DNA of 64,000 nucleotides, taken from NCBI RefSeq assembly GCF_963665445.1, contig NZ_OY762276.1, forward strand, positions 4,334,601 to 4,398,600, in the 5' to 3' direction. The DNA comes from an uncultured Desulfobulbus sp. (GTDB lineage: Bacteria; Desulfobacterota; Desulfobulbia; Desulfobulbales; Desulfobulbaceae). How positions within the stretch are numbered: position 1 is the first letter of the stretch; every line of letters starts with the position of its first letter. This document shows, piece after piece, positions 8,406-32,733 of this stretch. Under the pieces are notes generated by a model, which did no database searches, had not been told where the DNA came from, and saw only the letters and a program-made list of their open reading frames with translations. The position numbers and the translations under genes are program-made.

Positions 8406-10277
8406 ATGGCCACCTATCTGCATCCCGGCGTGTACATCGAAGAAATTCCCAGCGGCGCCAAACCCATTGAAGGCGTTTCCACCAGTGTGGCGGCGCTGAT
8501 CGGTTACGCCACCCAAGGTGCGATCGCTACTCCGACCCTGGTCCACAGTTGGGACGAGTACAAGGCGGAGTTCGGCGAAATTCAATCGGAGACCGATACC
8601 CTGGCGCTCGCCGCCTTCTACTTTTTCTTGAACGGCGGCCGCGATGCCTATATCGGCCGTCTGGCCAAGGACACCCAGGCGGCGACCCTGGCAGCGGGCA
8701 CCATCCTGGGCCGGGGGGCGGCATCGGCTGCCGATGTGCTGAAGGTGAGCGCCCGCAATCAGGGGAAAAGCGGCAACTCCCTCAAGGTGCGGGCCGAGGC
8801 GGCAACTGATGGCTATCGTTTTTCCCTGCAGGTGCAGAGCGGCGACGAGCTTGTGGAGTTCTTTGCCGGCCTGTCCATGGATCCCAGCGATGCGTCCTAT
8901 GCCCTGGCCCAGGTCAACAGCAACTCCAAGTACATTCGCCTGGCCCTGCCCCTTGGCTTGAACGGCTATTTCAAACAGGCCACCTCCGTTTCAGGCGACC
9001 TGAGCGGGATTTCCTGGGCCAGCGTGGTTGCCGGCATGACCCTGACGCTCAACATCGACAACCTCGGCGCCCGCACCATCACCCTCGGGGCACCCGAGGA
9101 CGGCAGTTACGACGGCACCAAGGTGGCGGCGGAAATCCAGCAGCAGGTCCTGGCCCTTGGACCCGACTATGTCGGCTTTACCTGCGGCTTTGCCAGCGAT
9201 GCCCTGACTCTGACCTCGGGCAAGGGGGCCGCCTCCTCCATGGTGGCGGTTCGTCCCGGTGCCCTGGCCACCACCTTGAAACTCGGGGCGACCCTGGGCA
9301 CCGAGAAGCACGGCAGCGAGGATGTGGTTCCGGTGACCATGGCCTCGGCAGTCGGCCTGACCAACGGCGACGACGGCGTCGCCCCCGGCCTGGAGGATTA
9401 CAACGACTTTTTCGCTCAGCTCAAGAAGGTGCGCGATGTCAACATCGTCCTTCTTCCGGGCCAGTACCTGCCCGCAGACGGCATGGGCAACCCGATCATC
9501 GACGCCGCCGAGTCCCACTGTATCGCCATGGGCAGCCGCATGCTGCTGGTCGATCCCCCTCCGGGCACGGAGCTGGATCAGGGCGGGAAAGTCAGTGATC
9601 TGCAACCGCCATCCTCCACCTACAGCGTGCTCTACTACCCCTGGGTCAAGGTTAAAAATCCGCTGTACAACCAGGTGACCAACGCCACCGCACCCACGAC
9701 CATCACCCTTGCCCCATCGGCCTTTGCCGCCGGCATCTGGGCCCGGACCGACGGCACCCGCGGGGTGTGGAAGGCGCCGGCCGGCGTCGAAGCCTCGGTC
9801 AGCGGGGTGGCGGCCTTGGAGTATGTGGTGGAAGACGGCGATCAGGATCAGCTCAACCCGATGGGGGTCAACTGCCTGCGCAAGATGCCCGGTTATGGCC
9901 ACGTGGTCTGGGGAACCCGCACCCTGGCCACCAAGTCCAACCCGGAGTGGCGCTATGTCCCGGTCCGGCGGACCGCGCTCTACATCGAGAGCAGTATCCG
10001 CAACGGCATTCAGTGGGCGGTGTTCGAGCCCAACGACCACCGGCTCTGGTCATCGCTGCGCGCCAATATCGGCGCCTTCATGGACGGCATGTTCCGCGCC
10101 GGTGCCTTCCAGGGCCAGAAGGCCTCGGACGCCTACTTTGTCCGCTGCGGCCTGGGCGACACCATGACCCAGGATGATGTCGATCGTGGACAGGTCATTG
10201 CCGTGGTCGGCTTTGCCCCGCTGAAACCGGCCGAATTCGTCATCGTTCGCATTCAGCAGAAAGTCGGTCAATCGTGA
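8406..10277 (+). CDS. eCIS contractile sheath protein (Afp2-4/Pvc2-4 family)
   Basis: 623 residues. It begins with the classical sheath start MATYLHPGVYIEEIPSGAKP and ends with the conserved C-terminal sheath domain (GTRTLA, WRYVPVRRTALYIE, then VRCG near the end). Copies assemble into the extended sheath that contracts and drives the inner tube through the target membrane. An insertion of roughly 250 residues sits in the middle (about 120-320), likely surface-exposed. Only one sheath gene is present, unlike the three of Afp/PVC, which places this locus among single-sheath eCIS. First gene of the operon. Confidence 0.95.
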   Translation: MATYLHPGVYIEEIPSGAKPIEGVSTSVAALIGYATQGAIATPTLVHSWDEYKAEFGEIQSETDTLALAAFYFFLNGGRDAYIGRLAKDTQAATLAAGTILGRGAASAADVLKVSARNQGKSGNSLKVRAEAATDGYRFSLQVQSGDELVEFFAGLSMDPSDASYALAQVNSNSKYIRLALPLGLNGYFKQATSVSGDLSGISWASVVAGMTLTLNIDNLGARTITLGAPEDGSYDGTKVAAEIQQQVLALGPDYVGFTCGFASDALTLTSGKGAASSMVAVRPGALATTLKLGATLGTEKHGSEDVVPVTMASAVGLTNGDDGVAPGLEDYNDFFAQLKKVRDVNIVLLPGQYLPADGMGNPIIDAAESHCIAMGSRMLLVDPPPGTELDQGGKVSDLQPPSSTYSVLYYPWVKVKNPLYNQVTNATAPTTITLAPSAFAAGIWARTDGTRGVWKAPAGVEASVSGVAALEYVVEDGDQDQLNPMGVNCLRKMPGYGHVVWGTRTLATKSNPEWRYVPVRRTALYIESSIRNGIQWAVFEPNDHRLWSSLRANIGAFMDGMFRAGAFQGQKASDAYFVRCGLGDTMTQDDVDRGQVIAVVGFAPLKPAEFVIVRIQQKVGQS

Positions 10278-10364
10278 TGGCGTCGGGAAACAAGTGAACG
10301 TACCGACCCTGACCCTGTAACCCGAGAGCTAGGAAGCACGAAAGCTACCTAAGGAGACATAGCA

Positions 10365-10874
10365 ATGGCTGCTCCCACATTTCCTGTCAACGCCCATCGC
10401 CACGATCCGTACCGGACCTTCAAATTTCAGATCCTCATTGACGGCAAGCCGGTGGCCGGGCTGAAAAAAATGGGTGCGCTCAAGCGCAAGACCGAAGCCA
10501 TCAAATGGCGTTCGGCCGGTGACCCGAGTTCTGAACGGATTCTTCCCGGAGGCACCAGCTACGAGCCCGTGACCCTGGAGCAGGGGCTTTCCCATGATCC
10601 GGTCTTTGAAAGCTGGGCCAACCTGGTCAACAACGTCGAGGGCGATGCGGCGATGTCGCTCAAAAATTTCCGCAAGGATATCGTGATCAACGTGCTCAAC
10701 CTGCAGGGAACGGTGGCCATCTCCTACCGACTGTACCGCGCCTGGGTTTCCGAATACCAGGCCCTGCCGGAGATGGATGCCGGGGCGATGAACGCGGTCG
10801 GCATTCAGACCATCACCCTCCAGCACGAGGGCTGGCAGCGCGATACCGCGGTGGTTGAGCCCACGGAGAGTTGA
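10365..10874 (+). CDS. eCIS inner tube protein (Afp1/Pvc1, gp19-like)
   Basis: 169 residues of the T4 gp19/Hcp-fold tail-tube family. Typical features are the early YRTFKFQILIDGKPVAG strand pair, the middle segment EPVTLEQGLSHDPVFESWAN, and the late YRLYRAWVSEYQALPEMDA. Hexamers stack to form the tube propelled by the sheath. A strong AAGGAG ribosome-binding site sits 8 bases before the ATG, in keeping with high expression. Only this canonical tube gene is seen; the Afp7-like gene further down is a second, diverged tube or adaptor protein. Confidence 0.93.
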   Translation: MAAPTFPVNAHRHDPYRTFKFQILIDGKPVAGLKKMGALKRKTEAIKWRSAGDPSSERILPGGTSYEPVTLEQGLSHDPVFESWANLVNNVEGDAAMSLKNFRKDIVINVLNLQGTVAISYRLYRAWVSEYQALPEMDAGAMNAVGIQTITLQHEGWQRDTAVVEPTES

Positions 10875-10960
10875 TGATCTGGAACTAATCGGTCACACCA
10901 AAATTGAAACGTCGTTCAGGTGGCTTTTCAGAGGAACGACAAAGTTGACAAGGAGCGCAT

Positions 10961-11752
10961 GTGCGGCTACCGGGCGGATTGATTGAGCAGGAAACCCGTT
11001 CTCGCGACTGGTCGTTTCAACCGGTCAGCGGTGCCCTGGAAATGGCCCTGAGCGAGGTCGCCCAAGCGGCTGCGAGTATGCCCTGGGCCGTCACCCGTGT
11101 TCTTTCCCTGGCCCTGGAGCGGCTCGGCAACCAGCCGGCAACCGAGGAGCGGGTTGCCGGCCTCTGCGTGGGCGATCGCCAGTTTCTCATGCGCGAGCTG
11201 GAGCTCCATCTGGGCGTCCAGGGGGGGTGGTTCCACGCCGAGTGCAGCGGTTGCGGCAGCCGCTTTGATTTTCAGGTGCAGTACGCCGAGCTGCCGGTGG
11301 AGGAAGCGGGGCCGACCTACCCCCAGGCCCGGGTGCAGTGGCAGGGGCGGCAGATGTGTTTTCGCCTGCCCACCGGGGAAGATCAGGAGCGCCTCTTGAC
11401 GATCCCCCCGGAATCGGCGCAGGCCTGGTTGTTCTCGCAGGTGCACCTGGAGGGCGATTTGCCCCAGGAATGGGATTCCGATCTGCTCCAGGTGGTTGAC
11501 GAGGCCCTGGAGGCGGTTGCCCCCGGAATCGTCACCAGGATCCAGGCCAACTGTCCGGAATGTGGAGCCGGCAACGAAGTGGAACTTGATCCCTACCGGG
11601 TATTATCGTTGAACAGCGATACCCTGCTGCGGGAGGTCCATCAGCTGGCCAGCCATTATCACTGGAGCGAGGCTGAAATCCTCGGGTTACCCAGAACCCG
11701 GCGGCTCCGCTATCTGGAGCTGATCGATCGCAGCCGGGGCATGACGAGATAA
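10961..11752 (+). CDS. Zinc-ribbon baseplate hub assembly protein (T4 gp26-like)
   Basis: 263 residues, starting at a GTG with AGGAG 5 bases upstream. The first ~90 residues contain the helical region seen in T4 gp26-like assembly chaperones, including RVAGLCVGDRQFLMRELELH. Two CxxC pairs (CSGCG about 101-105 and CPECG about 195-199) probably form one zinc site. Genes of this type commonly lie between the tube and the cap gene in eCIS operons. The assigned role, helping baseplate or hub assembly, is family knowledge and not tested for eCIS of this kind. Confidence 0.7.
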   Translation: MRLPGGLIEQETRSRDWSFQPVSGALEMALSEVAQAAASMPWAVTRVLSLALERLGNQPATEERVAGLCVGDRQFLMRELELHLGVQGGWFHAECSGCGSRFDFQVQYAELPVEEAGPTYPQARVQWQGRQMCFRLPTGEDQERLLTIPPESAQAWLFSQVHLEGDLPQEWDSDLLQVVDEALEAVAPGIVTRIQANCPECGAGNEVELDPYRVLSLNSDTLLREVHQLASHYHWSEAEILGLPRTRRLRYLELIDRSRGMTR

Positions 11753-11754
11753 AC

Positions 11755-12750
11755 ATGAGTTTACTTGGCGACACCATACGCGATGCACATCGACCTCTGC
11801 CCGGCAGGGGAGGCGAGGTGCTGCGGCGGATACCGCTTGAGGAATACGCGGAGAGCGGCCCGGAGGAGGAGTACGCCTCCTCCGGGCTGCAGACCGTGTT
11901 CAGGTTTCAGAAGGAGGGGCCGTCGCCACCGATGACTGCGCCCCGAGAGGCGTCCTTCCGGTCGGGGAGCAGGGGAACTGATCTTCCGGCCGGTGACCCT
12001 TTGTCAGTGGAGAGCAAGGTTGAAAGGCCAAACTTATCTGCCAGCAAAGTCGACGGCAACGAAGACTTTTTTTCCGTAACGGGCGAAAATCGAGGGAACG
12101 AACTGGCAACAGGACAGATGAATCACGGAAGTCCAGGTTGGACAACGGCAGCCGAGATGAGCTCCGAGACGAGTACGCATCAGTCAGTAGTTGGGTCTGA
12201 GCCGAATGAATCGGATTCTGCACATCAACAGCAGAAGTCCCGCGAACAACAGGGCAGTGTGGAATTTGTTAGTGAACAAGAGGAAACGTACCAGAGTCGG
12301 ATACCGGGTCAGGGCGCCCCTTCTGAATCTTTTTTCACCGCACCGATCCCCCCCCTGAGATCGGTTACACCGGGACCGACTTCAGCCGAGCGGCCGCATC
12401 TCCCTGGCCAGATTTCTTGGCCGGCTGAAGCGGTTCCCGGTCAAGCGGTGGAGAACCCCCCATGGGGGCAAGGGGAGAACGATCCCGACCGGGAACCGCT
12501 CGCCTCTTCTGCGAGCCGGCCGCATACGACTGGTGCCGCAGTGCTGCAATGGCCTGCTGGCTATGCGGAAGCCCCATCGGAGGCGCTCTTTACGCCAAGC
12601 GCGTCTGTTCCCCCTGAAGCAGCGCAGCTGGTTATCGGCAGGATCGATGTCGTGGTCGTGTCCACAGCGGAACAAAAACGCACGCAATCGATTCCCACCC
12701 GGCAATCAGATTCCGGCTTTGTCAGCCGCAACTATCTCAAACGGCTCTGA
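11755..12750 (+). CDS. Disordered eCIS protein with short conserved C-terminus
   Basis: 331 residues dominated by Ser, Pro, Gly, Glu and Gln, with no predicted fold or membrane segment. Only two parts look ordered: the first ~50 residues and a C-terminal stretch (about 290-331) with LVIGRIDVVVV and ending FVSRNYLKRL. Proteins with a variable, disordered body and this kind of tail occur at the same position in other phage-tail-like operons. The ATG follows the previous stop by 2 bases and the next gene's ATG follows its own stop by 1 base, so translation is coupled. Function unknown; an assembly linker or a tail-lumen protein is possible. Confidence 0.65.
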   Translation: MSLLGDTIRDAHRPLPGRGGEVLRRIPLEEYAESGPEEEYASSGLQTVFRFQKEGPSPPMTAPREASFRSGSRGTDLPAGDPLSVESKVERPNLSASKVDGNEDFFSVTGENRGNELATGQMNHGSPGWTTAAEMSSETSTHQSVVGSEPNESDSAHQQQKSREQQGSVEFVSEQEETYQSRIPGQGAPSESFFTAPIPPLRSVTPGPTSAERPHLPGQISWPAEAVPGQAVENPPWGQGENDPDREPLASSASRPHTTGAAVLQWPAGYAEAPSEALFTPSASVPPEAAQLVIGRIDVVVVSTAEQKRTQSIPTRQSDSGFVSRNYLKRL

Positions 12751-12751
12751 T

Positions 12752-13771
12752 ATGGCTCTGGTCTCCTCACCCCTTTCCCAGGTCTGCAAAGGCATCCGCA
12801 CCTATCTCGATGGCGCCATCAACGGGCCTGATCGGAGCAAGGTCAGCGTGGTCCTGTCCACCCCGGCGGAAACCGCGTCGACCGGGGCGGGTGATTCCGA
12901 TCATCGGCTCAACCTCTTTTTTTTCCGTTTCGAGCCTGTTGGCCTCTTTCCCGATATTCTGCCCGGTGAGACCAGCTGGATGCGCGCCTTCTGCCTCATC
13001 ACCCCCTTCGCCGGCGAGGAGGAGACTGTCGGTCCGGGGGAGAACGATTTACGCCTGGTCGGCGAGGTCAGCCGCATTTTCCACGAGCAACCGGTTTTTC
13101 ACCTCGATGTCGACGGCGAACGCTACCATCTGCAGGTGATCCTCCAACCCATGGGCCTTGACCAGCTCAACCAGCTCTGGTCCACCCAGGGCGATACCAT
13201 CTATCGGCCATCGCTCCTTTATGAAATTTCCCTGATGCCGGTGGTGCCGGTGGACAAGGTTGTTCCCGCACCGTTCACCGGCGCCCTTGGGCTGCAGGTC
13301 CAGGCGGGGCTGGCCGCGCAGCCGGTGAGCACCGGAGCAACCCCGCCCCAGGTGGCCCCCATGATGCCGGATACCCGCCAGCCCGATTGGGTACCTGCGG
13401 TGGCCCTGGTGTATGAGGACAGCTGCAGTGTCAGCCTGCTTTTTCGTGTGGGCAGTCCCGAGTTGGCGGCCTTTGTCCCCCAGGTCTGGCTGGCCGGGGA
13501 GGTCGGCACTTCCGTGCGGCTTGTCTGGGAAACCTGGGAGGCGGGCAGGGGATGGCAGCGGGTGGAACCGGCGATATCGGGCCTGGTGGCCAACCGCTCC
13601 ATCGATCCGGAAAGCGTGGCCGAGGCAAGCCTGATCCCGGCACCGCTGCCGTTTAATGATCGGCCCGGGCAGATGCTGCTCTATGCCGAGCGCAGTCTGG
13701 TGCGTGCGGTGGATGGCGTCCTGCTGGAGCTACGCTCCAATCCCCTTTTGATCACCCTCTACACCGGTTGA
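12752..13771 (+). CDS. eCIS cap/tail terminator (Pvc16, DUF4255)
   Basis: 339 residues. The N-terminal ~190 residues form the DUF4255/Pvc16-N domain (LNLFFFRFEPVG, then YRPSLLYEISLMPVVP), which in Afp and PVC forms the hexameric cap ending the sheath and tube. The rest is a Pro-rich linker and a beta-rich Ig-like domain at the C-terminus. The start is set at the ATG at 12752, one base after the previous stop. The open frame continues upstream to 12533 only as an overlap with the preceding gene. Confidence 0.9.
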   Translation: MALVSSPLSQVCKGIRTYLDGAINGPDRSKVSVVLSTPAETASTGAGDSDHRLNLFFFRFEPVGLFPDILPGETSWMRAFCLITPFAGEEETVGPGENDLRLVGEVSRIFHEQPVFHLDVDGERYHLQVILQPMGLDQLNQLWSTQGDTIYRPSLLYEISLMPVVPVDKVVPAPFTGALGLQVQAGLAAQPVSTGATPPQVAPMMPDTRQPDWVPAVALVYEDSCSVSLLFRVGSPELAAFVPQVWLAGEVGTSVRLVWETWEAGRGWQRVEPAISGLVANRSIDPESVAEASLIPAPLPFNDRPGQMLLYAERSLVRAVDGVLLELRSNPLLITLYTG

Positions 13772-13775
13772 CCCC

Positions 13776-15122
13776 ATGAATGCGCCCCAGGCCGAATGCC
13801 AGATCCTCTCCCGACTCGATGCCGAATGGCGTCGTCTGGAGTTGCTCTGTTGGTGTCTGGCCAAGGGCAGACGGGGGGAGAGCCTGGGAGAGGACGAGTT
13901 GGAGCAGCTCCGCCAACTCCAGGCCGAGGTGCATGGCCTGAGGGAGGCGGATGGTGTCTGGGAAGAGGCCCTGGGGCTGTGCTTGTCTCACCTGGAATAC
14001 GATATTCTCGCCGCTGTGCTGGCCCCGGAGGTGGAGCCCAGGCTCGGCTGGAGTTTCCAGTCCCTCCAGGCCGGGGGCAGTCAGCCCTGGGCAACGCGCA
14101 GCCTGATTCAGGAACTCTTTGCCCTGGACGGCAACCAAGCCCATCAGCTGCGCCAGGCCCTGGGGCCTCAGGGGGAGTTGCGGCGAAGGCGCCTTATTCG
14201 GGTGCAGGAGGAGGGGCCCTACCATCCCATCCAGCCCGAACCCTGGCTGCTTGGCCGGATCAGCGGCCGGGACATGGAACTGCCGCCTCCGCCCGGCGCC
14301 ACACCGGTGCGCCAGCGAGCCCAATGGCGGGATCTGGTGCTGCCGCCCGGCAGGCTGGCCATGCTGCACGAATTTCTTCTCTGGATCCAGCAGCGGGACA
14401 TCGTGGTCAATGCCTGGCAGGGACAGAGCGTGGGCGGTCCGGTGGCCCTGTTCACCGGTCCTTCCGGCACGGGCAAGACCTTTGCGGCCTCGGTGCTGGC
14501 CACTGCCCTTGGCTGGCAGCTTTTTCGGGTCGATCTCGGTCGCTTGGTGAGCAAGTATGTGGGCGAGACCGAGGAAAATCTCAACCGCCTTTTCGATGCG
14601 GCCCACGACCAACCCATGGTGCTCCAGTTCGACGAGGCCGACGCCCTTTTTGCCAAGCGGGGCGAGGTCAAGGAGGCCCGCGACCGCTACGCCAACATGG
14701 AGGTCAGCCACCTGCTGACCCGGATCGAGGTCCATAGCGGCCCCTGCATTCTCACCACCAACCTGCGCAAGCAGCTGGATGGCGCCTTTACCCGCCGCTT
14801 CCAGATGGTGGTCGATTTTCCCCGGCCGGATGCAGAGGCCAGGGCCGCCCTGTGGCAGCGATTGCTGCCGCCCAAGGCGCCCATTGCCCTTGAGGTGGAG
14901 CATGATTTTCTCGGCGCGGCCGTGGCCCTGACCGGGGGCTCCATTCGCAACGCCGCCCTGCATGCGGCCTACCTGGCCGCAGGGAGCGGATCACCGATCA
15001 GCCTGGGCCATATTGCCCATGCCATCTGGCGCGAACTGGGCAAGGAGGGCAGGGAGATCAATCCCCAGGACCTTGGCCCCCTGTCCGCATACCTGCCCGA
15101 GGAGCTCGTCGATGAACACTGA
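13776..15122 (+). CDS. eCIS AAA+ ATPase (Afp15/Pvc15)
   Basis: 448 residues. A variable helical N-terminal half of ~210 residues precedes an AAA+ module. The Walker A motif GPSGTGKT is at 228-235 and the Walker B motif MVLQFDEAD has its Asp/Glu pair at 286-287. The sensor-1 region LTTNLRKQLD and an arginine-finger-like FTRRFQ follow. This ATPase is a hallmark of eCIS and separates them from R-type pyocins and T6SS. It is thought to help assembly or cargo loading. It overlaps the next small gene by 11 bases. Confidence 0.95.
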   Translation: MNAPQAECQILSRLDAEWRRLELLCWCLAKGRRGESLGEDELEQLRQLQAEVHGLREADGVWEEALGLCLSHLEYDILAAVLAPEVEPRLGWSFQSLQAGGSQPWATRSLIQELFALDGNQAHQLRQALGPQGELRRRRLIRVQEEGPYHPIQPEPWLLGRISGRDMELPPPPGATPVRQRAQWRDLVLPPGRLAMLHEFLLWIQQRDIVVNAWQGQSVGGPVALFTGPSGTGKTFAASVLATALGWQLFRVDLGRLVSKYVGETEENLNRLFDAAHDQPMVLQFDEADALFAKRGEVKEARDRYANMEVSHLLTRIEVHSGPCILTTNLRKQLDGAFTRRFQMVVDFPRPDAEARAALWQRLLPPKAPIALEVEHDFLGAAVALTGGSIRNAALHAAYLAAGSGSPISLGHIAHAIWRELGKEGREINPQDLGPLSAYLPEELVDEH

Positions 15123-15348
15123 AATCGGTCATCTCCACCTGCAGCTGCCAGCCGGATTTGAAAAGAGGGCCCAGCGCATTGGCCGTCTGGTTGGCGAGGC
15201 CCTGGCCGGTTCCACCACCTTGCCCGCCGGGCAGATCGCGCATCTGCGGGTGGGACCGGTGGAGGTCGGAGTCCATTTTTCCGACCAGCGGGTCGCGCAA
15301 ACGATTGCCGATTCCATTCATGCCGCCATCCAGCGCGGTCTCAGCTAA
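15112..15348 (+). CDS. Small conserved-looking eCIS protein
   Basis: 78 residues starting MNTEIGHLHLQLPAGFEKRA. The ATG has GAGGAG nearby and lies inside the end of the ATPase gene, so translation is coupled. It has an amphipathic helical N-terminal half, a beta-hairpin-like LRVGPVEVGVHFS, and a C-terminal helix. I do not recognise a family. Its conserved spacing within the operon and good codon use argue that it is real; it may be a small assembly factor. Confidence 0.65.
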   Translation: MNTEIGHLHLQLPAGFEKRAQRIGRLVGEALAGSTTLPAGQIAHLRVGPVEVGVHFSDQRVAQTIADSIHAAIQRGLS

Positions 15349-15363
15349 GAGGAGAGGGAAAGC

Positions 15364-16014
15364 ATGCTGTCACCCTTACGCGGATTTCTGGTGGAATACG
15401 GGACGAGCATCCCGCCGTTGATGCTCTCCTTCCACTTCAATCCCCAGAGCCTGACCCGCAACCGCAGCGTCACCCTGACCCTGGGGAGCACGCCCGCCAC
15501 CCGCGGCGGCTATGATTTTGCCCTGCCCTCGGAGACCTCACGGGTTGCCCAGGGGGTGTCGGTGGAGCCGGAATCCTTTGATCTTGAGATCCTGATCGAT
15601 GCCACCGACCGGATGAACGACAGCGATCCCATTGCCCAGTCCCTTGGGATCCAGCCGGAGCTGGACACCCTGCGCTCCATGGTCGAGCCCAAGGTCCAGG
15701 GGCCGGGTGGGGTTCAGGCCTTGGCCGGCCTCGGATTCGGCGGCAGCCGCGCCTTTCAGCGCAGCCAGTCGGCCTCGGTGCTGCTGCTTGTCTGGGGGGT
15801 CCACGTACTGCCGGTCTTCCTCAAGAGCGTGGAGGTGGCTGAATCCGCCCACCTGCCCACCCTGACCCCCTACCGGGCCACGGTAAAGCTGAGCCTGCAG
15901 GTGATCGAGGGCAACAACCCCTTTTACACGGTGGAAAAGGTACGCCAGGTGATCGGCTCCAAACTCAACTCGGCCAAAACCGTGGTCAGTGGCGCGGTGG
16001 AGGGATTTTTCTGA
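15364..16014 (+). CDS. eCIS Afp7-like tube/adaptor protein
   Basis: 216 residues. The N-terminus (LSFHFNPQSLTRNRSVTLTL) is typical of the CIS tube/Afp7-type protein that joins tube to baseplate. A beta-rich core (ESFDLEILIDATDRMND) and a late region typical of this family (VHVLPVFLKSVEV) follow. The C-terminus is helical. A strong GAGGAGAGGG ribosome-binding site lies upstream. The stop overlaps the start of the LysM-like gene (TGATG). Afp7 is gp53-like and carries a LysM; here the LysM is on the separate downstream gene. Confidence 0.85.
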   Translation: MLSPLRGFLVEYGTSIPPLMLSFHFNPQSLTRNRSVTLTLGSTPATRGGYDFALPSETSRVAQGVSVEPESFDLEILIDATDRMNDSDPIAQSLGIQPELDTLRSMVEPKVQGPGGVQALAGLGFGGSRAFQRSQSASVLLLVWGVHVLPVFLKSVEVAESAHLPTLTPYRATVKLSLQVIEGNNPFYTVEKVRQVIGSKLNSAKTVVSGAVEGFF

Positions 16015-16304: not shown

Positions 16305-16307
16305 ATC

Positions 16308-24483: not shown

Positions 24484-24547
24484 AGTCGACCTGCCCGCAT
24501 GGGGCAATCGTTTTTTCTTTAATGTCTAACCTGAAAGGGTAGCATCC

Positions 24548-27433
24548 ATGAAAACCCAAATTTCGAGAAACTCGCTTCAACCCGAGAAACACTATTCAGG
24601 TCTCTACCTGCAACAGGGGCGGATGATCACCGATGCGGATTGGAACGAGCTCACCGATATTGAGAAAGAGCGGCTGGTCGCGGCCCTGGCAGATGTGGTG
24701 TCCAGTGGTGCGCCGCGAACAGGGGGGCTGAGGCTCATCGCCGTACCGTCAGGTTCGACCAATGTGCGCATTGCGCCCGGCGTTATTTACGTCGAAGGCG
24801 TGCCGGCCCGGCTTGAAGCCGAGTACAACCTGGCTATCAATACCCAGCCCGACTATCCGCTTCAGGCCGATTACAGCGGCCAGAGCCTCTGCCTCTATGC
24901 CGATGTCTGGGAGCGGACGGTGACTGCCCTGGAGGATGCCGCCCTCATGGATCCGGCCCTGCACGGGGCCGACACCGCCAGTCGCAGCCAGACCATGGTG
25001 CAGGTGAAGTGGTGCCCAACCACCGGCACCACCCCGGTTGACCTGATGGACGACCAGGTCAATCCCCCTCAGGGGACGGCCGAACTCAGCCTCCGCCTGG
25101 CCCTGATCACCGGTTCCGCCGACAGCTGCGATCCCTGCGCAAGTCAGGTGGATGTGGATGAGCGCATCGGCAACTCTCTCTTTCGGGTTGAAGTGCACGA
25201 CTTTGACCGCGACGCCCAGATCCTGACCCTGAAGTGGTCGCGCGATAACGGTGCCGAGGCCTGCCGTGTCGCGGAGATGCCCGCCGGGTTCAACCAGGGC
25301 CCCTGGGTGTGGGAGTTCTACGACGACAACACCGAGCGCCTTTTAGGCAATCATTTTGCACCCAACGCCAAAAACTTGCGCGGCCTGCTGCGCACGACCT
25401 GCACCGAGCCGACCGGCGCCGCAGAACCCAAGACCTATGTGCGCCAGTGGGATGGCTACCTGACCATCGACCTCAAGACCCTGTCCGGCTCCACCCTGGT
25501 TTTCAGCGGGGTCGACCGCGGTGTACCTCTTGCCCAGGGCGCGGCCGGCTCGGCCAGTCATGGCCGGGTCGCAGCCAGCGACGGCAAGATCAGCATCAAC
25601 CTGGAGCGGATGGAGCTCCACCTGGACACTAAGGAAAAACTTTTTGTTCCCGGAGACTTCTGGCTGGCCACGGTGCGCGAGTCTGTCCAGGTGTCCGGCC
25701 AGTACATTCTTCCGCCCACGGAGGGTTTGGCTGTCCCTGCCCGGGGGGCAACCCCCTGTGGCATTCGCCACCACTACTTGGTCCTGGGGGAAATCGGCAT
25801 CAACAAAAAGTTGGTTGCCGGGGATGATCCCTTCATCCGGCAAATGCACTTTCCACCGCTGAGCGATATCCAGGCCGGAGATGTGGGCTACGCGATCCCG
25901 GTCTGCGAAAATCAGCAGAACACCCTCAAGGACCTGCTCGCTCCGGATCTTGATCTCAATGGGGATGGGCAGGTGAACCTGCGCCATGTCCTGGACACCC
26001 TCCTGTGTCGTCTGCGGGCGGATCGCCTGCCGCTCAACAAGCAGGACACCGCCCTGTGCAGCGAACTGCAGGGGAATGCGGTGGTCACGGTGCAGGATGC
26101 GCTTCGTGTGCTCTGCGATAAATCCACCATCAGCTGCTCGGTGGTGGCGACATCTTCCGCCCAACTTGCAGTGCTGCTGCAGGAGTTTGCCGCCGACAGC
26201 TCAGCCCTGGATCTGTGGATCTGCCTGCCTGCTGGCACCTATCCCATCGCAACCGAGGTCTCCCTCAGCGGCAAGCGCAGCCTGCGCATCAGCGGCCAGG
26301 GGCCACGGGCGGTTCGCATCACCTGCAGTGCCGCTCAATTGAATCTGGAAGCGGATGAAATCGTGTTGGAAAACCTGACCCTGAGCTTTGCCACCGGCAG
26401 CGGTCAGCTGGCCATTCGTGCCGGCGAATCGCGAACGAGCAACTGCCGTTTCAGCCGTACCACCACCGTCAAGGGGCCGCCGATGGTCAGCGTTGGCGGC
26501 CAAGGCAGCGCAGATTGCACCTTGGCTTGGGAAAACAACCGTCTGGACGCCATCGTGAAAAAGGTCACCGCCAGCAATAGCGCCTGGATCGAGGCCATAG
26601 GGGCGGGCAACGACAAGCTCAAGGAAAGTCTTGCCGCCCTGACCGGTGCCGAACTTTTAGCCAACAGGGATGCCTACGATGCGGCAATCAGGCAAGTGGT
26701 TGCCACGATTATCGCCCTGCCGAAGACCACTCGAGCGGCCTGGAGCACAAACTTGCAGGAGATCGCCGCTCCGACGCGGATTCCCGTGTTTGCGGTTCGC
26801 AGGGTGGGCTCCGCTGCCTTGGTTGAAGCGCTGTCCAAGGAGAAGCCAAACGCGCTTGAGCTGGCTGCGGCGCTGGAGGAGATCGTTGCTGTCGGCGTGA
26901 GCCGTGAACCGGATTATGCCCTGCGCCTGGAAACGGCCAAGGTGGGCGGTGTGCTGGCGAAAAACCGGGTCAGCGGCTGGGTGCTGTTGGCAAACGGGGT
27001 GAGCGGTTATCGCCATCCCACTGTGGCGGTGATCGGATCCACCCTCGATGGTGCGGTTGTCAAGAGCGGCGGCAATGACTTACGCCTGGTTGAAAACAGC
27101 TTTGAGGGGCTCAAGGCCAACTTGCCCGCAGGCAGTGTCAACGACGAAAACCGGCTCACCGTACAAGTCAGCGGCTATGCACGCCTGATTGCCAGCGGCA
27201 ATACGATTGAGCAGGGACTCAATTCGCTGGTTACGGCGCACTTCGTCGGCCAGGGCAACACCTGGAGCCGGGAAGGGACCGATCCGCTTGGTTCGGTGAT
27301 CGGTGATCGGGGCGTTTTTACCGGCAACCTGCTCGATACCGGCACCGCGACCCTCCAGATCACCAGCACCATGGGCAAGGATCAACTACGCTCAGGGGGC
27401 AATCTGGAGGTGGATTTGGTCAGCGCAACCTGA
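24548..27433 (+). CDS. DUF6519 beta-helix protein, candidate fibre/receptor-binding protein
   Basis: 961 residues. The N-terminus has the DUF6519 signature (ISRNSLQPEKHYSGLYLQQG, then DADWNE at 29-34). A beta-rich region to about 460 follows. A dockerin-like or EF-hand-like calcium motif LDLNGDGQVNL lies near 467-480. The C-terminal half looks like a right-handed parallel beta-helix (LPAGTYPIATEVSLSGKRSL and later short GN/SG-rich turns). Proteins with this N-terminus are frequent in phage-tail-like loci. No separate Afp13-type fibre gene exists here, so this is the best candidate for target recognition. The role is inferred. Confidence 0.72.
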   Translation: MKTQISRNSLQPEKHYSGLYLQQGRMITDADWNELTDIEKERLVAALADVVSSGAPRTGGLRLIAVPSGSTNVRIAPGVIYVEGVPARLEAEYNLAINTQPDYPLQADYSGQSLCLYADVWERTVTALEDAALMDPALHGADTASRSQTMVQVKWCPTTGTTPVDLMDDQVNPPQGTAELSLRLALITGSADSCDPCASQVDVDERIGNSLFRVEVHDFDRDAQILTLKWSRDNGAEACRVAEMPAGFNQGPWVWEFYDDNTERLLGNHFAPNAKNLRGLLRTTCTEPTGAAEPKTYVRQWDGYLTIDLKTLSGSTLVFSGVDRGVPLAQGAAGSASHGRVAASDGKISINLERMELHLDTKEKLFVPGDFWLATVRESVQVSGQYILPPTEGLAVPARGATPCGIRHHYLVLGEIGINKKLVAGDDPFIRQMHFPPLSDIQAGDVGYAIPVCENQQNTLKDLLAPDLDLNGDGQVNLRHVLDTLLCRLRADRLPLNKQDTALCSELQGNAVVTVQDALRVLCDKSTISCSVVATSSAQLAVLLQEFAADSSALDLWICLPAGTYPIATEVSLSGKRSLRISGQGPRAVRITCSAAQLNLEADEIVLENLTLSFATGSGQLAIRAGESRTSNCRFSRTTTVKGPPMVSVGGQGSADCTLAWENNRLDAIVKKVTASNSAWIEAIGAGNDKLKESLAALTGAELLANRDAYDAAIRQVVATIIALPKTTRAAWSTNLQEIAAPTRIPVFAVRRVGSAALVEALSKEKPNALELAAALEEIVAVGVSREPDYALRLETAKVGGVLAKNRVSGWVLLANGVSGYRHPTVAVIGSTLDGAVVKSGGNDLRLVENSFEGLKANLPAGSVNDENRLTVQVSGYARLIASGNTIEQGLNSLVTAHFVGQGNTWSREGTDPLGSVIGDRGVFTGNLLDTGTATLQITSTMGKDQLRSGGNLEVDLVSAT

Positions 27434-27456
27434 GAAAATATTTTGGGGGAGGTGCC

Positions 27457-28593
27457 ATGAAAACGTTGCAACAGAGTCGACGTCTGATGCGCGCTCGCGG
27501 TATTGCGGTGTTGAAACCGATGCGGATGGACAAGAGCCGTCAGTCACTGCGAGAGGTTTTTGATGCCCCCATCCAGACCAAGTTGCGGGTGGGCTCCCCT
27601 GATGACGCCTTTGAGCGTGAGGCCGATAGTCTGGCCGAGCGGATGCTTTCCATGCCGCAACCGCGGGTGCAGCGCGAGTCCGAGGATGAGGAAAAACCGA
27701 GACCCGTGGACGATGAGCGGGAAGAGGAGGTTCAGGCCAAGGCGATTGATCCTACGGCCCCACCGACACTCACCAGTCTGCCTGCAACGGGGGGCGGCAA
27801 GCCCTTGGCCCCGGGGGAGCGCACTTTTTTTGAATCGCGTTTAGGGGCACATCTCGGTTCGGTCAGGGTCCATAGCGATATTGAGGCGGATCGGCTGGCC
27901 AGCGGGCTGTCGGCCCGTGCCTTTACCCTGGGCCGGGACATCTATTTCGGCGAGGGCGAATACCAACCGGGAACCCTGGAAGGCCGCCGTCTGCTTGGCC
28001 ATGAGTTGGCGCACGTGCTCCAGCAGGGCAGGGGCCAGGAGGACCTGCAGCGCAAGATTGACCGGGTGAAGATCAGCAAGAAGGGGATCGACCTCTACTT
28101 CAGTCTCGGCATTTATGGGCCCAATGCCAGTGCCAATCTGGCCTCCACCTGGGCAACCAACATCGAAAACAAGTGGAGTCAACAACTCAAGGTCAAGGGG
28201 ACGACCATAGATGCCAAGGTCCATGTCACCGCCAAGGCATACCCCCTCCTCCCCGATGTCGATATGATGCAGATGGCGGTGCCTGAATCCAATGCGGTGT
28301 ATGTGGAGAAAAACGGATTCCGTTCTCATGTCGCCTATTCGGGCTGGGGCCATGACAAGTGGAGCACCGGCCGCTGGGCCTTGGATGCCAAGCCGCTCGT
28401 GGTTGCCCATGAGGCGGGTCACATGATGGGACTTAAAGACAAGTATGTCGATCTCCCCTTCCTCGGCAGCGTTGATCTGCCGGGATACGAAAAAGACATC
28501 ATGGCCAATTTCTGGAATGATAACGGCAAGACCGACTTTACCCGCGGCTGGTGCGGTATTCTTCTTTATCATTTCTTCGGGTATCGTTCCTGA
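27457..28593 (+). CDS. DUF4157 eCIS cargo with a second zincin site
   Basis: 378 residues. A short N-terminal leader is followed by the DUF4157 domain (GSVRVHSDIEADRLASGLSA, then the zinc motif HELAH at 182-186). DUF4157 is strongly associated with eCIS cargo and is thought to mark effectors for loading. The C-terminal ~190 residues are different and hold a second, metzincin-like motif HEAGHMMGLKD (H318, E319, H322, D328), i.e. HExxHxxGxxD, with a following Met-containing segment (DIMANFW) that could be the Met-turn. This suggests a secreted protease effector. GGGGGAGG precedes the ATG. The protease call is from motif only. Confidence 0.8.
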   Translation: MKTLQQSRRLMRARGIAVLKPMRMDKSRQSLREVFDAPIQTKLRVGSPDDAFEREADSLAERMLSMPQPRVQRESEDEEKPRPVDDEREEEVQAKAIDPTAPPTLTSLPATGGGKPLAPGERTFFESRLGAHLGSVRVHSDIEADRLASGLSARAFTLGRDIYFGEGEYQPGTLEGRRLLGHELAHVLQQGRGQEDLQRKIDRVKISKKGIDLYFSLGIYGPNASANLASTWATNIENKWSQQLKVKGTTIDAKVHVTAKAYPLLPDVDMMQMAVPESNAVYVEKNGFRSHVAYSGWGHDKWSTGRWALDAKPLVVAHEAGHMMGLKDKYVDLPFLGSVDLPGYEKDIMANFWNDNGKTDFTRGWCGILLYHFFGYRS

Positions 28594-28611
28594 ACCTTTT
28601 TCGGGCGCATT

Positions 28612-31600
28612 ATGCTGACAGCCGCGCTCACCCATAAACAGCCCCTTAACCAGGGAAGGCTTGTTGTCCGTCCGGTTCTCCGTCCCAGGCTCAAGCTCGG
28701 CGCTGTCGTTGATGAGGCCGAGCAGCAGGCGGATCGGATCGCGGCCCGGGTCCTGCAGGGAAAATCCGCCCCAGGGACCGATCAATCCTCGGGTGCTTCA
28801 CAAGGCGATCATCGATCCGCCATTCGCCGTATCCTCACCCCGCAGGCAGCAACCGCGCTGGAACAGCCCGTCGAGGAGGAGCAGGTCCTTCCCGAGACGC
28901 TGGAGCATGAGGTGGCCGTGTTGCAGAGCGGCGGTCGTCCTCTGCCACCTCCGCTGCGGGCGGAGATGGAGGGCCGTTTTGGTATGGATTGGGGCTCGGT
29001 GCGGATCCATACCGATGCAAATGCGGCGCGGCTAAGCGAGATCCTCCACGCCCGGGCCTTCACCGTTGGCGAGCATATCGCCTTCAACGACGGCAGTTTT
29101 CAGCCGGAGACCGGATCCGGTCGATTTCTTTTGGCCCATGAGCTGGCCCATGTGGCCCAGCATCGCGGCGCAGCCGAATCCGCGGTCAACCAGCCGGTTC
29201 GCCGGGGATTCTGGAGCGATCTCTACAATTCGGCCGCTGAAACCCTGGGGGATATCGCCGATTGGGCCATGGACCAGGTCGAGGAATTCGGCTGGCGTCT
29301 TATCGAGAGCATTTCGCCCGAATTTGCCCGCACGGTCCGCGCCATCGCCGACGAGGGCGTCGTCCACTGGCTGAGTCGCCAAGTGTCCCATGCCTTGGAT
29401 GGTTTTATCAACACCCTGCGCAGCCTGGTGCCCTTTGATGCGCCACAGCAGCTCATCGCCTTTTTTTCCGGGTTGGTGGAACGGGCCGCCGGGATCGCGG
29501 GCGCCCTGGCCTCGGGACGCTGCGAACCCCTGATGCAGGCCATCACCGCGATCAAGACCTTTGTGGTGGAAACCGCCGGTGTGGCCTGGGACCGGTTGAC
29601 CGAGTTTCTCCAGCCTGTGGCCACCTTTTTCAGCGACCTCTGGAGTCAGTTCGGCACGCCGGCTGTGCAGTGGCTGCAGGATTTCGGTGGCGAGGTCTGG
29701 CAGGGAATTCAGGACCTGGGCCGTCGTTTCTGGGATTGGATCCGCCCGGTGCGCGAGGCAGCGTCCCGGGTGTGGAACTGGTTTTCCGGCAGGCTGTTCG
29801 GTTCCTCCGGAGGAGAGGGGGACGGCTCGAGCCAGGGCGGCATTCTCGGATGGATCACGCAAAAGGCCGGCGAGGCCTGGGACTGGGTGCGCGAGCAGAC
29901 GCGTCCGGTCTGGCAGCCTGTGGCCAACCTGGCCGGCCAGGTGGCGGAGCTGCTGCCGCCGGCCTTTGTCCGTGAGCTGGGCGAGCGGGCGCAACAGCTC
30001 TCGACCGAGCTTGAGCCTGCGACCGCGGGTATGGATGGGGGCGCAGGCGTACCGGAGGCGCGCAACAACCTGGCCTCCTCCCTGCCTTCGATCCTCAATG
30101 TTATCGGTACGATCCGCAGTGTTATCGTGCATATCAGCCAGTGGCTGTCAACCCGCATAACCGCAGTGGCAAGCCTGATCACCGGTCTGGTGAATCGCCT
30201 GCGGGCCAGCGCGCTCCTTTCCTGGCTTTCCAGCCCCTTCAGTGCCCTTGAACAGGCGCTGAGCTTTCTCGCCAATTGGGCCAGCAACGCGGTAGCCAGC
30301 CTTTTTGCCACCCTGCTGCAGGCCTTTGATGCGCTCTCGCCTTTTTTTGAGCTGGTGCTCGAGACCGTGCGCAAGGTGATCACCATCTTTGGCGACCTGT
30401 TGCAGTTGCCGTTGTTGGTGCTCAACGGAATCTGGCAGCGGGTACCGCGCTGTATCCGCGAACCCATTGAAAATTTCATCAAGAACCAGATTCTTGCCCG
30501 CATCCCCGTTTTTGGCCAGTTTTTCTCCGATCCCGAACTCTGGCCGCGGGTGCAGCAGACCGCCCTGGGGATTCTCCGTCGTATCTTTGTCGATGGAGAC
30601 ATCGGTGGCGCGGCCTGGGCCTTTTTCCAGACGATTTTAGGTATTCTCGGCGTTCCCGCCCAGCTGGTGGTGCAGATTCTTGCCAGAGCGGCGCGGGCGA
30701 TCGGCGATATCCTCACCAACCCCATCGGCTTTCTCGGCAACCTCCTCCGGGCCATGGGCAGGGGATTCACCCAGTTTTTTGCCAATATCGGCACCCATCT
30801 GCTCAGCGGCCTCACCAACTGGCTCTTTGCCACTGTCCGTGATGCGGGCATCAACCCGCCCACGGATTTCTCCCTGCGCTCGGTGCTGGGTTTTGTCCTC
30901 GAGATCCTGGGGGTGAGTGCTGAAAATATCTTCCGCCGTCTCGGGCGGCGAATCAGCCCGGCCATCGTTGCCCGGTTGCGGTCCATGCTCTCTCTGGCCA
31001 CCGGGGTCTGGTCCTTTATCGCCACCCTGATCAACGAGGGGCCGGCCGGGTTGTGGCGAGAGTTGAGCGAGCGGCTCACCAGCCTCTGGGACAGTGTGGT
31101 CGAGGGCGTGGTCGGATTCATCACCGAGCGGGTGATCGGCTGGGCGGCCCGCTGGCTTGTGTCGCTTCTCGACGTGACCGGAATCATGCCGGTGATCAAC
31201 GCCCTGATCGCCATTTACCGCGCCATCGAATCCTTTATGCAGTATCTGCGGCAGATGCTTGAGATTGTTGCCCAGGTGCTGGATGGCATTGCCGGGATTG
31301 CCCGCGGAGCGATCGGCAAGGCCGCCGGCTTTGTCGAGCGCGCCCTGGCCGGTGCCCTGCCCATTGCCATCGGCTTTCTCGCCAACCAGGCTGGGCTGGG
31401 TAGACTGTCGCAGCGGCTGCGGGAAATTCTCGGCGGACTGCGTGGCCGGGTGGACCGGGCCATCGACTGGCTCATCGATCGCGCCCTGCGTCTGGGCCGG
31501 TCGATCCTGGATCTGGTGCGCAGGGGAACCGCCGCTGTGGGGCGGGGCATTGGCCGCTTGCGCGATTGGTGGCGGGCCCGCCGCAATTTTCAAGCCGGCG

Positions 31601-32733
31601 GCAGTCGGCACAGTGTCTACATTCAGGGCAGCGGTCGCAGCGCCCGCATCATGATCGCCTCGCCCCCCACCCCCTATGCCGATTTTATCCGCAGCGTGAC
31701 TGTCGCCCCTGACAAACAGTCCGACAAGAATCAGGCGGTCGAGATCGCGACCCAGGTCGATACCGCCATCGCCACCGCCAGCCGGGACAATGCCACACCC
31801 GGTGCGGCCGGGAGCACGCCGACCACCGTCAACCACGCCGATATCATCGACGGCCTGCTCGGACGCCTGGCCGACGCAACCGCCCGCTTCATGCCCATGG
31901 ATATCACCCGCTCCACCGATCCGGTCTATGGCAGCCAGGTGAACGGTTTCGGCGCTTCGGCCAGCGTGGTGCGCCTCACCCCGCTGCACAACAACGGCAG
32001 TTCGCCCTCCAGCGGCGAGATGGGCAATCCCCTCTGGGGCAAGGTGAGCAAGCGCAAGCAGGGGCAGGGGGTGTATTACATCAAGGGGCACCTGCTCAAC
32101 GATAACCTCGGCGGGCCGGGCAGTACCTGGAACAACCTGACACCGCTGACCCAGGCGGCCAACAGCGATCACAAAAATAGGTTTGAGAAATTTGTGAAAT
32201 TGGCGGTCAACGGCAGCGAGGGGCCGTACAATGAGCCCACCCCTGACCAGGCGCGCGCAAGGAACCTGAAGACGGTCAACTTTGTGGTAACCGCCCGTTA
32301 CGGGCAGCAGGCTCGAGCTGCCGATATCGCCTATTTTCGCGATCAGGGAGGTCAGGACGCCACGGATAAGGCGGATATCATCGAGGGCGAACAGGCCATC
32401 CCGGTGGCCCTGGACTGCGCGGCCCATGAGATCCGGTCCGATGGAACGGCCGGCGGTCCGGTGGCGCGGCATACGGTGGACAATCGAATCGACACGACGC
32501 TTGATCATTACGCCACCCGTCCCATCCCCAAACGGATTGTCTATCTCAACGAAATGTCGCGCAGCGAATTGCTGACCCTCTCTGGAATAGGGGAAGCCCT
32601 GGCCGATGCCATTGTCGAACAGCGTCCCTTCCGCACCCGCGCGGAAATGCAGGCCAAGGTCCATATTGCCCAGGGGCGCTGGAATCAGCTGCAGAACACC
32701 CCGGGGCTGGAGGTGCGGATCTATCGCCGCTGA
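28612..32733 (+). CDS. Giant DUF4157 protein with C-terminal nuclease and HhH domains
   Basis: 1373 residues. DUF4157 comes first (LRAEMEGRFGMDWGSVRIHT, with HELAH at 176-180). Residues ~200-990 are a long array of Trp- and Leu-rich amphipathic helices without transmembrane character (for example GRRFWDWIRPVREAASRVWN). A basic, Arg-rich segment follows (~960-1010). The C-terminal domain has the GH motif of beta-beta-alpha-metal nucleases: YYIKGHLLNDNLGGPG (H1160), then NLTPLTQAANSDHKNRF. A ComEA-like helix-hairpin-helix (LLTLSGIGEALADAIVEQRPF) closes it. This is probably a nuclease effector with DNA-binding tail. It is the last gene, convergent with radA. Its start has no strong ribosome-binding site. 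Confidence 0.78.
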   Translation: MLTAALTHKQPLNQGRLVVRPVLRPRLKLGAVVDEAEQQADRIAARVLQGKSAPGTDQSSGASQGDHRSAIRRILTPQAATALEQPVEEEQVLPETLEHEVAVLQSGGRPLPPPLRAEMEGRFGMDWGSVRIHTDANAARLSEILHARAFTVGEHIAFNDGSFQPETGSGRFLLAHELAHVAQHRGAAESAVNQPVRRGFWSDLYNSAAETLGDIADWAMDQVEEFGWRLIESISPEFARTVRAIADEGVVHWLSRQVSHALDGFINTLRSLVPFDAPQQLIAFFSGLVERAAGIAGALASGRCEPLMQAITAIKTFVVETAGVAWDRLTEFLQPVATFFSDLWSQFGTPAVQWLQDFGGEVWQGIQDLGRRFWDWIRPVREAASRVWNWFSGRLFGSSGGEGDGSSQGGILGWITQKAGEAWDWVREQTRPVWQPVANLAGQVAELLPPAFVRELGERAQQLSTELEPATAGMDGGAGVPEARNNLASSLPSILNVIGTIRSVIVHISQWLSTRITAVASLITGLVNRLRASALLSWLSSPFSALEQALSFLANWASNAVASLFATLLQAFDALSPFFELVLETVRKVITIFGDLLQLPLLVLNGIWQRVPRCIREPIENFIKNQILARIPVFGQFFSDPELWPRVQQTALGILRRIFVDGDIGGAAWAFFQTILGILGVPAQLVVQILARAARAIGDILTNPIGFLGNLLRAMGRGFTQFFANIGTHLLSGLTNWLFATVRDAGINPPTDFSLRSVLGFVLEILGVSAENIFRRLGRRISPAIVARLRSMLSLATGVWSFIATLINEGPAGLWRELSERLTSLWDSVVEGVVGFITERVIGWAARWLVSLLDVTGIMPVINALIAIYRAIESFMQYLRQMLEIVAQVLDGIAGIARGAIGKAAGFVERALAGALPIAIGFLANQAGLGRLSQRLREILGGLRGRVDRAIDWLIDRALRLGRSILDLVRRGTAAVGRGIGRLRDWWRARRNFQAGGSRHSVYIQGSGRSARIMIASPPTPYADFIRSVTVAPDKQSDKNQAVEIATQVDTAIATASRDNATPGAAGSTPTTVNHADIIDGLLGRLADATARFMPMDITRSTDPVYGSQVNGFGASASVVRLTPLHNNGSSPSSGEMGNPLWGKVSKRKQGQGVYYIKGHLLNDNLGGPGSTWNNLTPLTQAANSDHKNRFEKFVKLAVNGSEGPYNEPTPDQARARNLKTVNFVVTARYGQQARAADIAYFRDQGGQDATDKADIIEGEQAIPVALDCAAHEIRSDGTAGGPVARHTVDNRIDTTLDHYATRPIPKRIVYLNEMSRSELLTLSGIGEALADAIVEQRPFRTRAEMQAKVHIAQGRWNQLQNTPGLEVRIYRR

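Follow-up and report, generated by a model that had tools for sequence, protein, structure and literature searches.

A predicted fiber-bearing extracellular contractile injection system with two DUF4157 proteins in a Desulfobulbus-like bacterium

Introduction

Extracellular contractile injection systems (eCIS) with DUF4157 effectors are known (PMC8213781). AlgoCIS of Algoriphagus machipongonensis is described as having one sheath protein, Alg2, through all layers and two DUF4157 cargos, both of which fill the tube lumen and one of which, Cgo1, has a predicted metalloprotease C-terminus (PMC8894135). CISSc of Streptomyces coelicolor is reported to have two tube genes, no typical Afp14 tape measure and no conventional fiber (PMC10066040). 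Tme (BN159_7576) of Streptomyces davawensis consists of DUF4157, a long tape-measure-like linker and a C-terminal DNA/RNA non-specific endonuclease with H-N-N residues, and a producer that has lost it is altered in DNA release and sporulation (PMC11126660). On the side of the fibers, DUF6519, termed eBAP5, is one of five published N-terminal anchors in eCIS, and eBAP3 and eBAP5 systems use the adaptor Tail_P2_I (PMC12923769). Here we analyze a gene cluster at positions 8406..32733 of a 64,000-nt stretch of DNA from a Desulfobulbus-like bacterium (the whole stretch is called the window, and all coordinates are window positions unless given with a locus label). We propose that this cluster probably encodes an intact eCIS of the Tail_P2_I/DUF6519 (eBAP5) type with two DUF4157 proteins that are loaded and injected.

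Results

Gene content of the locus

The eCIS features found in the window locus are a sheath with a gp19-type tube, a Pvc16/DUF4255 cap and an AAA+ ATPase. All 18 co-directional genes described in an earlier note on this DNA are present as open same-strand frames between 8406 and 32733, and its list of components from sheath to cargos is supported by hidden Markov model searches, with several matches below the curated cut-off. Its description of the genes as mostly overlapping was too strong because, with the starts chosen here, only 5 of the 17 junctions overlap and the other 12 have gaps of 1-87 bases. The genes are given below with family E values (G- and L-numbers, here and throughout, are labels for the genomes and loci compared; G001 is a congener genome).

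8406..10277 (+), sheath, 623 aa, single copy; PF17482 8.1e-14, PF04984 1.1e-10
10365..10874 (+), inner tube, 169 aa; PF06841 2.3e-36
10961..11752 (+), baseplate-associated protein with CxxC pairs and a DUF6760-like tail, 263 aa, GTG start; DUF6760 1e-4, below cut-off
11755..12750 (+), Pro/Ser-rich protein, 331 aa, C-terminal IGRIDVVVV...FVSRNYLKRL; no family match
12752..13771 (+), cap/terminator, Pvc16_N (DUF4255), 339 aa; PF14065 6.6e-16, 59 bits against a cut-off of 27
13776..15122 (+), AAA+ ATPase with winged-helix domain, in the Pvc15 position, 448 aa; PF00004 1.9e-24, PF22977 1.4e-8
15115..15348 (+), small conserved protein, 77 aa, 65% identical in G001 and 41% in G051; no family
15364..16014 (+), CIS_tube/Afp7-like tube initiator, 216 aa; PF19266 5.2e-6, 26.7 bits against a cut-off of 27
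16014..16304 (+), LysM-like Phage_tail_X protein, 96 aa; PF05489 7.6e-5, 22.7 bits against a cut-off of 22
16308..17459 (+), hub (N-terminal half of VgrG), 383 aa; NF033848 (VgrG_rel) positions 4-344, 1.3e-8, below cut-off
17459..18277 (+), spike (C-terminal half of VgrG), 272 aa; PF04717 3.8e-22, NF033848 positions 370-516, below cut-off
18287..18673 (+), gp25-like wedge protein, 128 aa; PF04965 1.4e-13
18670..19872 (+), baseplate wedge protein 1 (gpJ-like), 400 aa; TIGR02243 7.8e-22, below cut-off, PHROG baseplate wedge 2.5e-5
19869..22817 (+), baseplate wedge protein 2 (gpJ), 982 aa; PF04865 5.7e-8, TIGR02243 5.7e-44, 150.7 bits against a cut-off of 155.8
22819..24483 (+), Tail_P2_I (gpI) fiber adaptor, 554 aa; PF09684 1.8e-6, 28.3 bits against a cut-off of 20.6
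24548..27433 (+), tail fiber, DUF6519/eBAP5 N-terminus and variable C-terminal half, 961 aa; PF20129 5.7e-19
27457..28593 (+), cargo 1, DUF4157 and metzincin-like C-terminal domain, 378 aa; PF13699 1.3e-28
28612..32733 (+), cargo 2, DUF4157, helical middle of about 815 aa, predicted DNA/RNA non-specific endonuclease and C-terminal HhH, 1373 aa; PF13699 6e-28

Matches above the Pfam curated cut-off were obtained for the sheath, tube, cap, AAA, LysM-like, spike, gp25, larger gpJ, gpI and DUF6519 proteins and for both eCIS_core proteins, and CIS_tube (26.7 against 27 bits) and DUF6760 (22.7 against 27 bits) fall just under it. The sheath and tube are the only PF17482 and PF06841 matches in the genome. 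Among solved sheaths, the nearest belongs to CISSc (3.3e-85; entries 8BKY/8BL4, assigned to CISSc), followed by entry 9ezm (3.1e-79), with PVC, Afp, tCIS and 7adz (6.3e-44) all weaker; we take 7adz to be AlgoCIS. The earlier note had looked to Pvc16 and Pvc15 profiles for the cap and the ATPase, and this held for only one of the two: the cap, whose start we set at the ATG at 12752 instead of a longer GTG frame at 12533, matches PF14065, but no Pvc15-named family matched the ATPase, for which the best NCBIfam AAA model was IteA (97 bits against a cut-off of 510). Hence the role of the ATPase is assigned from its AAA and winged-helix domains and from its adjacency to the cap gene, and these two genes adjoin in 36/36 of the related clusters that keep the window's gene order (the ordered clusters, see below).

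The hub, which has no Pfam match, was placed by its below-cut-off match to NCBIfam VgrG_rel, and hub and spike together make up two halves of this one VgrG-type profile. The fiber, at first a candidate, can now be named more firmly, since DUF6519 is a published eCIS fiber anchor paired with Tail_P2_I (PMC12923769). We compared 31 fibers, the window's among them, after leaving out open reading frames (ORFs) that were shorter than 600 aa, truncated at the 3' end or fused with the adaptor. The N-terminal 450 aa match in every one of the 465 pairs and the residues behind 480 in 209 of the 465, which is the pattern of a constant anchor with a variable, putatively receptor-binding part. In all 36 ordered clusters the slot of the Pro/Ser-rich gene, 5' of the cap, is filled by an ORF of 200 aa or more, and a profile of the protein matches there in 24 of them (285-564 aa). 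Its close relatives end in IGRI[DE]VxV...SRxYLxR, an end that a strict regular expression finds in 19 of 65 clusters, at least one of them (L066) spuriously. The protein at 10961..11752 also has a weak PHROG baseplate-hub match (0.022).

Comparison with G001 points to purifying selection on the locus, cargos included. There are no stops in the 17 genes compared (gp25, split between two stretches, was left out), and the ratio of nonsynonymous to synonymous substitution rates (dN/dS) is 0.04-0.18 for 15 of the 17 and 0.10 for each cargo, with 0.45 for the Pro/Ser-rich gene and 0.37 for the 77-aa gene; dS is 0.7-2.1 and thus partly saturated. Around the genes, a sigma-70 scan of 8000-8500 gave no promoter match, an Rfam scan of the window gave no family at gathering score, and ARAGORN found no tRNA in the window. 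An ORF at 7450-8097 (-), at first taken for a conserved divergent regulator, has no domain and was dropped because a plus-strand ORF with repeated CPC motifs spans the same bases.

The two DUF4157 proteins

The two DUF4157 cargos claimed earlier are borne out by the PF13699 matches, and the genome has two such matches in all. Metzincins carry an HExxHxxGxxH/D zinc site with a Met-turn. The 178-aa domain behind DUF4157 in cargo 1 has HE[AT]GHMMGL[KE]D and a downstream IMA in 3/3 of the sequences sharing it, namely those from the window, from G001 and from one Gallionellaceae metagenome-assembled genome (MAG; L151). It looks like a metzincin, presumably of the family with aspartate as third ligand, and it also has a below-cut-off match to the M6-domain model TIGR03296 (0.0035). 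No copy of the domain was found in viral contigs. Clustered by blastp at an E value of 1e-5, the C-termini of 35 DUF4157 proteins that have no large middle form 27 groups, and the cargo 1 gene looks like a swappable payload slot.

For cargo 2, Endonuclea_NS_2 is found in 13 of 15 aligned C-termini, the window's included, at E values up to 0.01 (best 2.3e-10); in the window sequence alone it scores 0.0007, below cut-off. The GH and the asparagines are invariant in the alignment. A PDB profile search with these C-termini returned no nuclease, the matches being to ComEA-type HhH and to chance only. A ComEA-like HhH motif at 32536-32691 ends the cargo 2 nuclease and is present in just 3 of the 15 aligned C-termini. 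The distance from HExxH to the end of the middle is 801-821 aa in 14 of the 15 nuclease-bearing homologs and 499 aa in L165, and identity of the middle to the window is 25-80% over the 15 and as low as 29% among the 14 that keep the length. Of the four full-length homologs without this nuclease, three (L162, L163 and L173) have a middle of 472-482 aa, and L159 is not measurable. The latter, a Desulfopila homolog at 2381-6646 (-) of its locus, has by eye another domain at its end, which contains ARGH and is perhaps also a nuclease of this class. A tblastn search with the cargo 2 middle gave matches on rhizobial and other plasmids, the best at 1e-62 with 25% identity, and 80% query coverage was reached in 0 of 90 records. 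Over the comparison set, then, the small cargo has a constant front and a swapped C-terminus, and the large cargo has a constant middle and a mostly constant nuclease.

A motif near the N-terminus of both cargos, which was written after seeing both, occurs in 38 of 58 DUF4157 proteins (a count that holds both cargos and from which 5'-cut ORFs were dropped) versus 1 of 4217 other ORFs. At 23 loci at least 5 kb could be read behind the fiber, and there a DUF4157 gene of any kind follows in 20, the large form in 15 and, under a gap rule, a small-plus-large pair in 10; these counts are descriptive because the regions were chosen partly for holding DUF4157. L157 and L158 hold both small and large genes outside the gap rule. 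At the genome level, DUF4157 is found in 33 of the 39 genomes searched. One cluster of candidate division LCP-89 (L171/L172) and one of Acidobacteriota (L182) each have four DUF4157 genes in a row behind the fiber. In a sister cluster type (L089, L098-L101, L103-L105, L112 and L113, many of them Nitrospirota) the DUF4157 genes are not behind the fiber; one to three of them stand between the ATPase and CIS_tube genes or directly behind the ATPase. A 714-aa protein behind the Halomonas fiber (L167, 11983-14124) has no DUF4157 match, and its end resembles, by eye, that of a 1290-aa DUF4157 protein of L164 (11068-14937).

The question of a tape measure

No Afp14-type tape measure was named in the locus by Pfam, NCBIfam or PHROGs except for a doubtful match of cargo 2, and no Afp14 sequence was used as a query. 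The cargo 2 middle has PHROG tape-measure matches of up to 2.8e-17, but their value as evidence of homology was undone by a control in which a reversed 421-aa stretch of the middle matched the same PHROG families as the forward one (9e-10 versus 1.3e-9). Three full shuffles and one local shuffle of this stretch gave no PHROG tape-measure match. Because the reversed stretch scores like the forward one, the match is not used as homology, and it probably reflects an amphipathic-helix pattern.

It is conceivable, if quite unlikely, that the large DUF4157 nuclease serves as payload and as ruler at once, with a helical middle that spans the tube and sets the tube's length. This reading comes from the length of 801-821 aa kept in 14 of 15 homologs despite low identity, and from the span of about 122 nm that we calculate for the middle at 0.15 nm per residue, which comes near the 110-120 nm given for eCIS particles (PMC8213781). 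AlgoCIS mutants without either cargo are reported to form particles still (PMC8894135). Cargo 2 as a universal ruler of the lineage was rejected, since the full clusters of Geobacter sp. GAC1 (L166, a MAG) and Halomonas campaniensis (L167) stand in genomes without any DUF4157 match. Five further loci have a DUF4157 gene behind the fiber that is not the large form. L174 (Corallococcus exercitus) has none behind the fiber, and it was not counted as lacking DUF4157 because contig L059 of the same genome carries a 1708-aa DUF4157 gene upstream of a sheath. The Pro/Ser-rich gene adjoining the cap is the other ruler candidate.

Gene order in the lineage

A search of genome contigs with a tube profile gave at least 372 relatives, and the best 80 of these were kept for all counts of gene order. 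At least 10 of the 11 core genes stand in the window's order in 36 of the 80, fewer core genes with the order unbroken are found in 42 (two of which, L088 and L115, hold the tube alone), and the order is broken in two, L051 and L085. One sheath ORF of at least 300 aa is present in 76 of the 77 loci that have a sheath; the SAR324 cluster L070 is the only one with two sheath ORFs in tandem. The record titles of the 80 name many phyla as hosts. Tube relatives on viral contigs number 13, the best at 58%. The supposedly distinctive features are normal for this lineage because 36 of the 80, across many phyla, share the core order. A single sheath, with hub and spike encoded separately and CIS_tube and LysM likewise in separate genes, is its usual arrangement. 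The claim that its architecture sets the locus apart is thus valid against Afp/PVC only and fails within the lineage.

Genomic surroundings and history

Genes for a ketol-acid reductoisomerase, LysR and LysE flank the locus upstream, and RadA-like (a label that we presume from the domain mix), pyruvate kinase, PEPCK and transketolase-like genes flank it downstream, with a PilM-N-O-P-secretin cluster further on. GC content is 39% at 42001-44000, over the pilM/pilN genes, versus 49-65% in the other 2-kb steps. The chromosome, a single contig of 5.08 Mb, has one PF17482, one PF06841, two DUF4157 and one Pvc16_N match, and IcmF_C (PF06744; TssM/IcmF) was found nowhere in it, the E. coli control being positive. 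In agreement with the claim that capsid, portal and terminase genes are absent, no head, portal or terminase gene was recognized by Pfam in 28 distinct flanking ORFs, which are not all of the flanking ORFs; a weak HTH-type similarity to a family of terminase small subunits was seen for the protein at 54380-55459 (0.018, below cut-off). By sequence, we see no sign of a prophage, of a second contractile tail of these families or of a type VI secretion system (T6SS).

Of the named relatives, Desulfobulbus rhabdoformis DSM 8777 is the nearest. It is among the best 80 tube relatives (tube 93%), has the ketol-acid reductoisomerase gene upstream as in the window and shows a mean DNA identity of 77% over 15.1 kb of aligned pieces; the stretch compared reaches into the second wedge gene. 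G001, of the window's genus, has the whole locus with both cargos between the same neighbors. The first wedge protein is present in 9 of 257 genomes of the order, its own included, two of the nine being in the window's genus. Judged by both flanking genes, G010 is a close genome; there, different genes adjoin the RadA-like gene on the side where an eCIS would be expected, and a separate contig carries the ketol-acid reductoisomerase gene.

A tree was built from 33 wedge proteins, restricted to rows of 330-520 aa, and its bootstrap had not settled. In it the sequences from the window, D. rhabdoformis and G001 group together (100/100) within a largely pseudomonadotal set (96/95 for 11 rows, 99/97 for 15 rows). 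The five remaining Thermodesulfobacteriota rows fall elsewhere, as does G051, which belongs to the window's order. Phylum labels on the tree are hardly more clustered than in shuffles (as low in 22 of 200). From this placement, the synteny with G001 and the neighbors in G010, we read the history of the locus as a likely acquisition by horizontal transfer with vertical inheritance thereafter. Five other genomes of the genus (G009, G011, G012, G015 and G019) have Pvc16_N matches of 105-111 bits, versus 57-59 here. The G009 cluster (L018, L035) has two sheath and two tube ORFs, and therefore the genus holds at least two eCIS types.

Discussion

By analogy with studied systems, the tube would assemble on a platform of the hub and the CIS_tube and LysM proteins, the cap would close it, and the fiber would bind the target. 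Pvc15 is reported to help load effectors (PMC11495950), and here the ATPase may help to bring both DUF4157 proteins into the lumen by way of their N-terminal region, with the region near the cargo N-terminus serving as a putative loading tag. As suggested by AlgoCIS and Tme, both proteins would travel inside the tube or on the baseplate and be expelled on contraction. The helical middle of cargo 2 would probably pack along the tube and help the nuclease to cross a membrane. Contraction of the sheath would drive the spike and tube through an envelope and free a metzincin-like protease and a non-specific nuclease. The least certain step is that the target would be another cell and not the producer.

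Several observations weigh against an eCIS that injects both DUF4157 proteins into other cells. The nearest solved sheath belongs to the cytoplasmic CISSc, which acts on its own cell, and neither the locus nor the flanking ORFs that were scanned gave a recognizable lysis gene. The metzincin motif of cargo 1 is short, and its PDB profile matches (gelatinase and small neutral zinc-protease chains) are not significant (E values 0.4-0.8). Single-sequence AlphaFold models were unusable (pLDDT 38.3 for cargo 1 and 36.2 for the nuclease end of cargo 2), and the N-terminal motif is missing from 20 of the 58 DUF4157 proteins.

Some of these same points would suit a cytoplasmic system of the CISSc/Tme kind, which would fire inside its producer so that nuclease and protease act on the producer itself, in programmed death or DNA release. 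It would account for the sheath ranking and for no lysis gene having been recognized, and cargo 2 has the layout of Tme, whose loss alters DNA release and sporulation of its producer (PMC11126660). We nevertheless consider it unlikely, as CISSc has no conventional fiber, whereas the locus has a fiber gene, its C-terminal half varying between hosts, and the Tail_P2_I adaptor of fiber-bearing eCIS; sheath similarity is, in our judgment, a poor guide to mode of action. The adaptor itself brings up a T6SS-like or tCIS-like system that is anchored in the membrane and fires on contact, since eBAP3 fibers with Tail_P2_I are reported to resemble TssK/TssG (PMC12923769). Set against this are the lack of an IcmF_C match in the genome and a fiber N-terminus that is eBAP5 (DUF6519) and not the eBAP4 crown of tCIS, which make such an arrangement very improbable. 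That the genes are the remains of a prophage tail or tailocin that is decaying and has survived by chance is hardly credible: a distant phage-tail origin is common to all such systems, but the 18 frames are intact and seemingly under purifying selection, the cap and ATPase are present, no head gene was recognized in the 28 flanking ORFs scanned, and the chromosomal neighbors are ordinary. The earlier assignment to eCIS rather than to a T6SS, a pyocin or a prophage is thus upheld by the component profiles, the flanks and a genome without IcmF_C.

The locus offers a clean, conserved eCIS in a Desulfobulbus-like lineage, with a compact effector pair and a congener bearing the same locus. It makes testable how tube length is set in an eCIS without a recognized Afp14-type gene and what role the DUF4157 domain has. 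In the text available to us, the papers found that join Desulfobulbus with "contractile injection" name each term once.

Comparison with known systems

The window locus shares with Afp and PVC a Pvc16-type cap, an AAA+ ATPase, gp25, gpJ and a contractile tail, but they have three sheaths (Afp2-4, Pvc2-4) where it has one, together with a split VgrG and no recognized Afp14. AlgoCIS is like it in having one sheath protein and two DUF4157 cargos, one of them metalloprotease-ended, and differs in that its sheath is a weaker match than that of CISSc and in that Tail_P2_I and the DUF6519 fiber are features of the window. CISSc, the nearest by sheath, is reported to lack a typical Afp14 tape measure, and it has two tube genes and no conventional fiber in place of one tube gene and an eBAP5 fiber. 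Cargo 2 and Tme, compared by description, share the layout of DUF4157, long middle and nuclease; Tme, however, extends to residue 2247 and has its gene just 5' of those for the baseplate, whereas cargo 2 has 1373 aa, comes last in the operon, is paired with a small DUF4157 protein and is tailed by an HhH motif. With the eBAP5 (DUF6519) loci of the 2026 fiber catalog no difference was found at this level; in both, the fiber stands behind the baseplate genes. The DUF6519 fiber and Tail_P2_I adaptor by which eBAP5/Tail_P2_I eCIS are defined (PMC12923769) are both present in the window. Each part has published precedent, in DUF4157 effectors, in one sheath with two DUF4157 cargos, in the DUF4157-linker-nuclease layout and in DUF6519 fibers, and the window locus looks like a further member of the eBAP5 (DUF6519) fiber-bearing eCIS.

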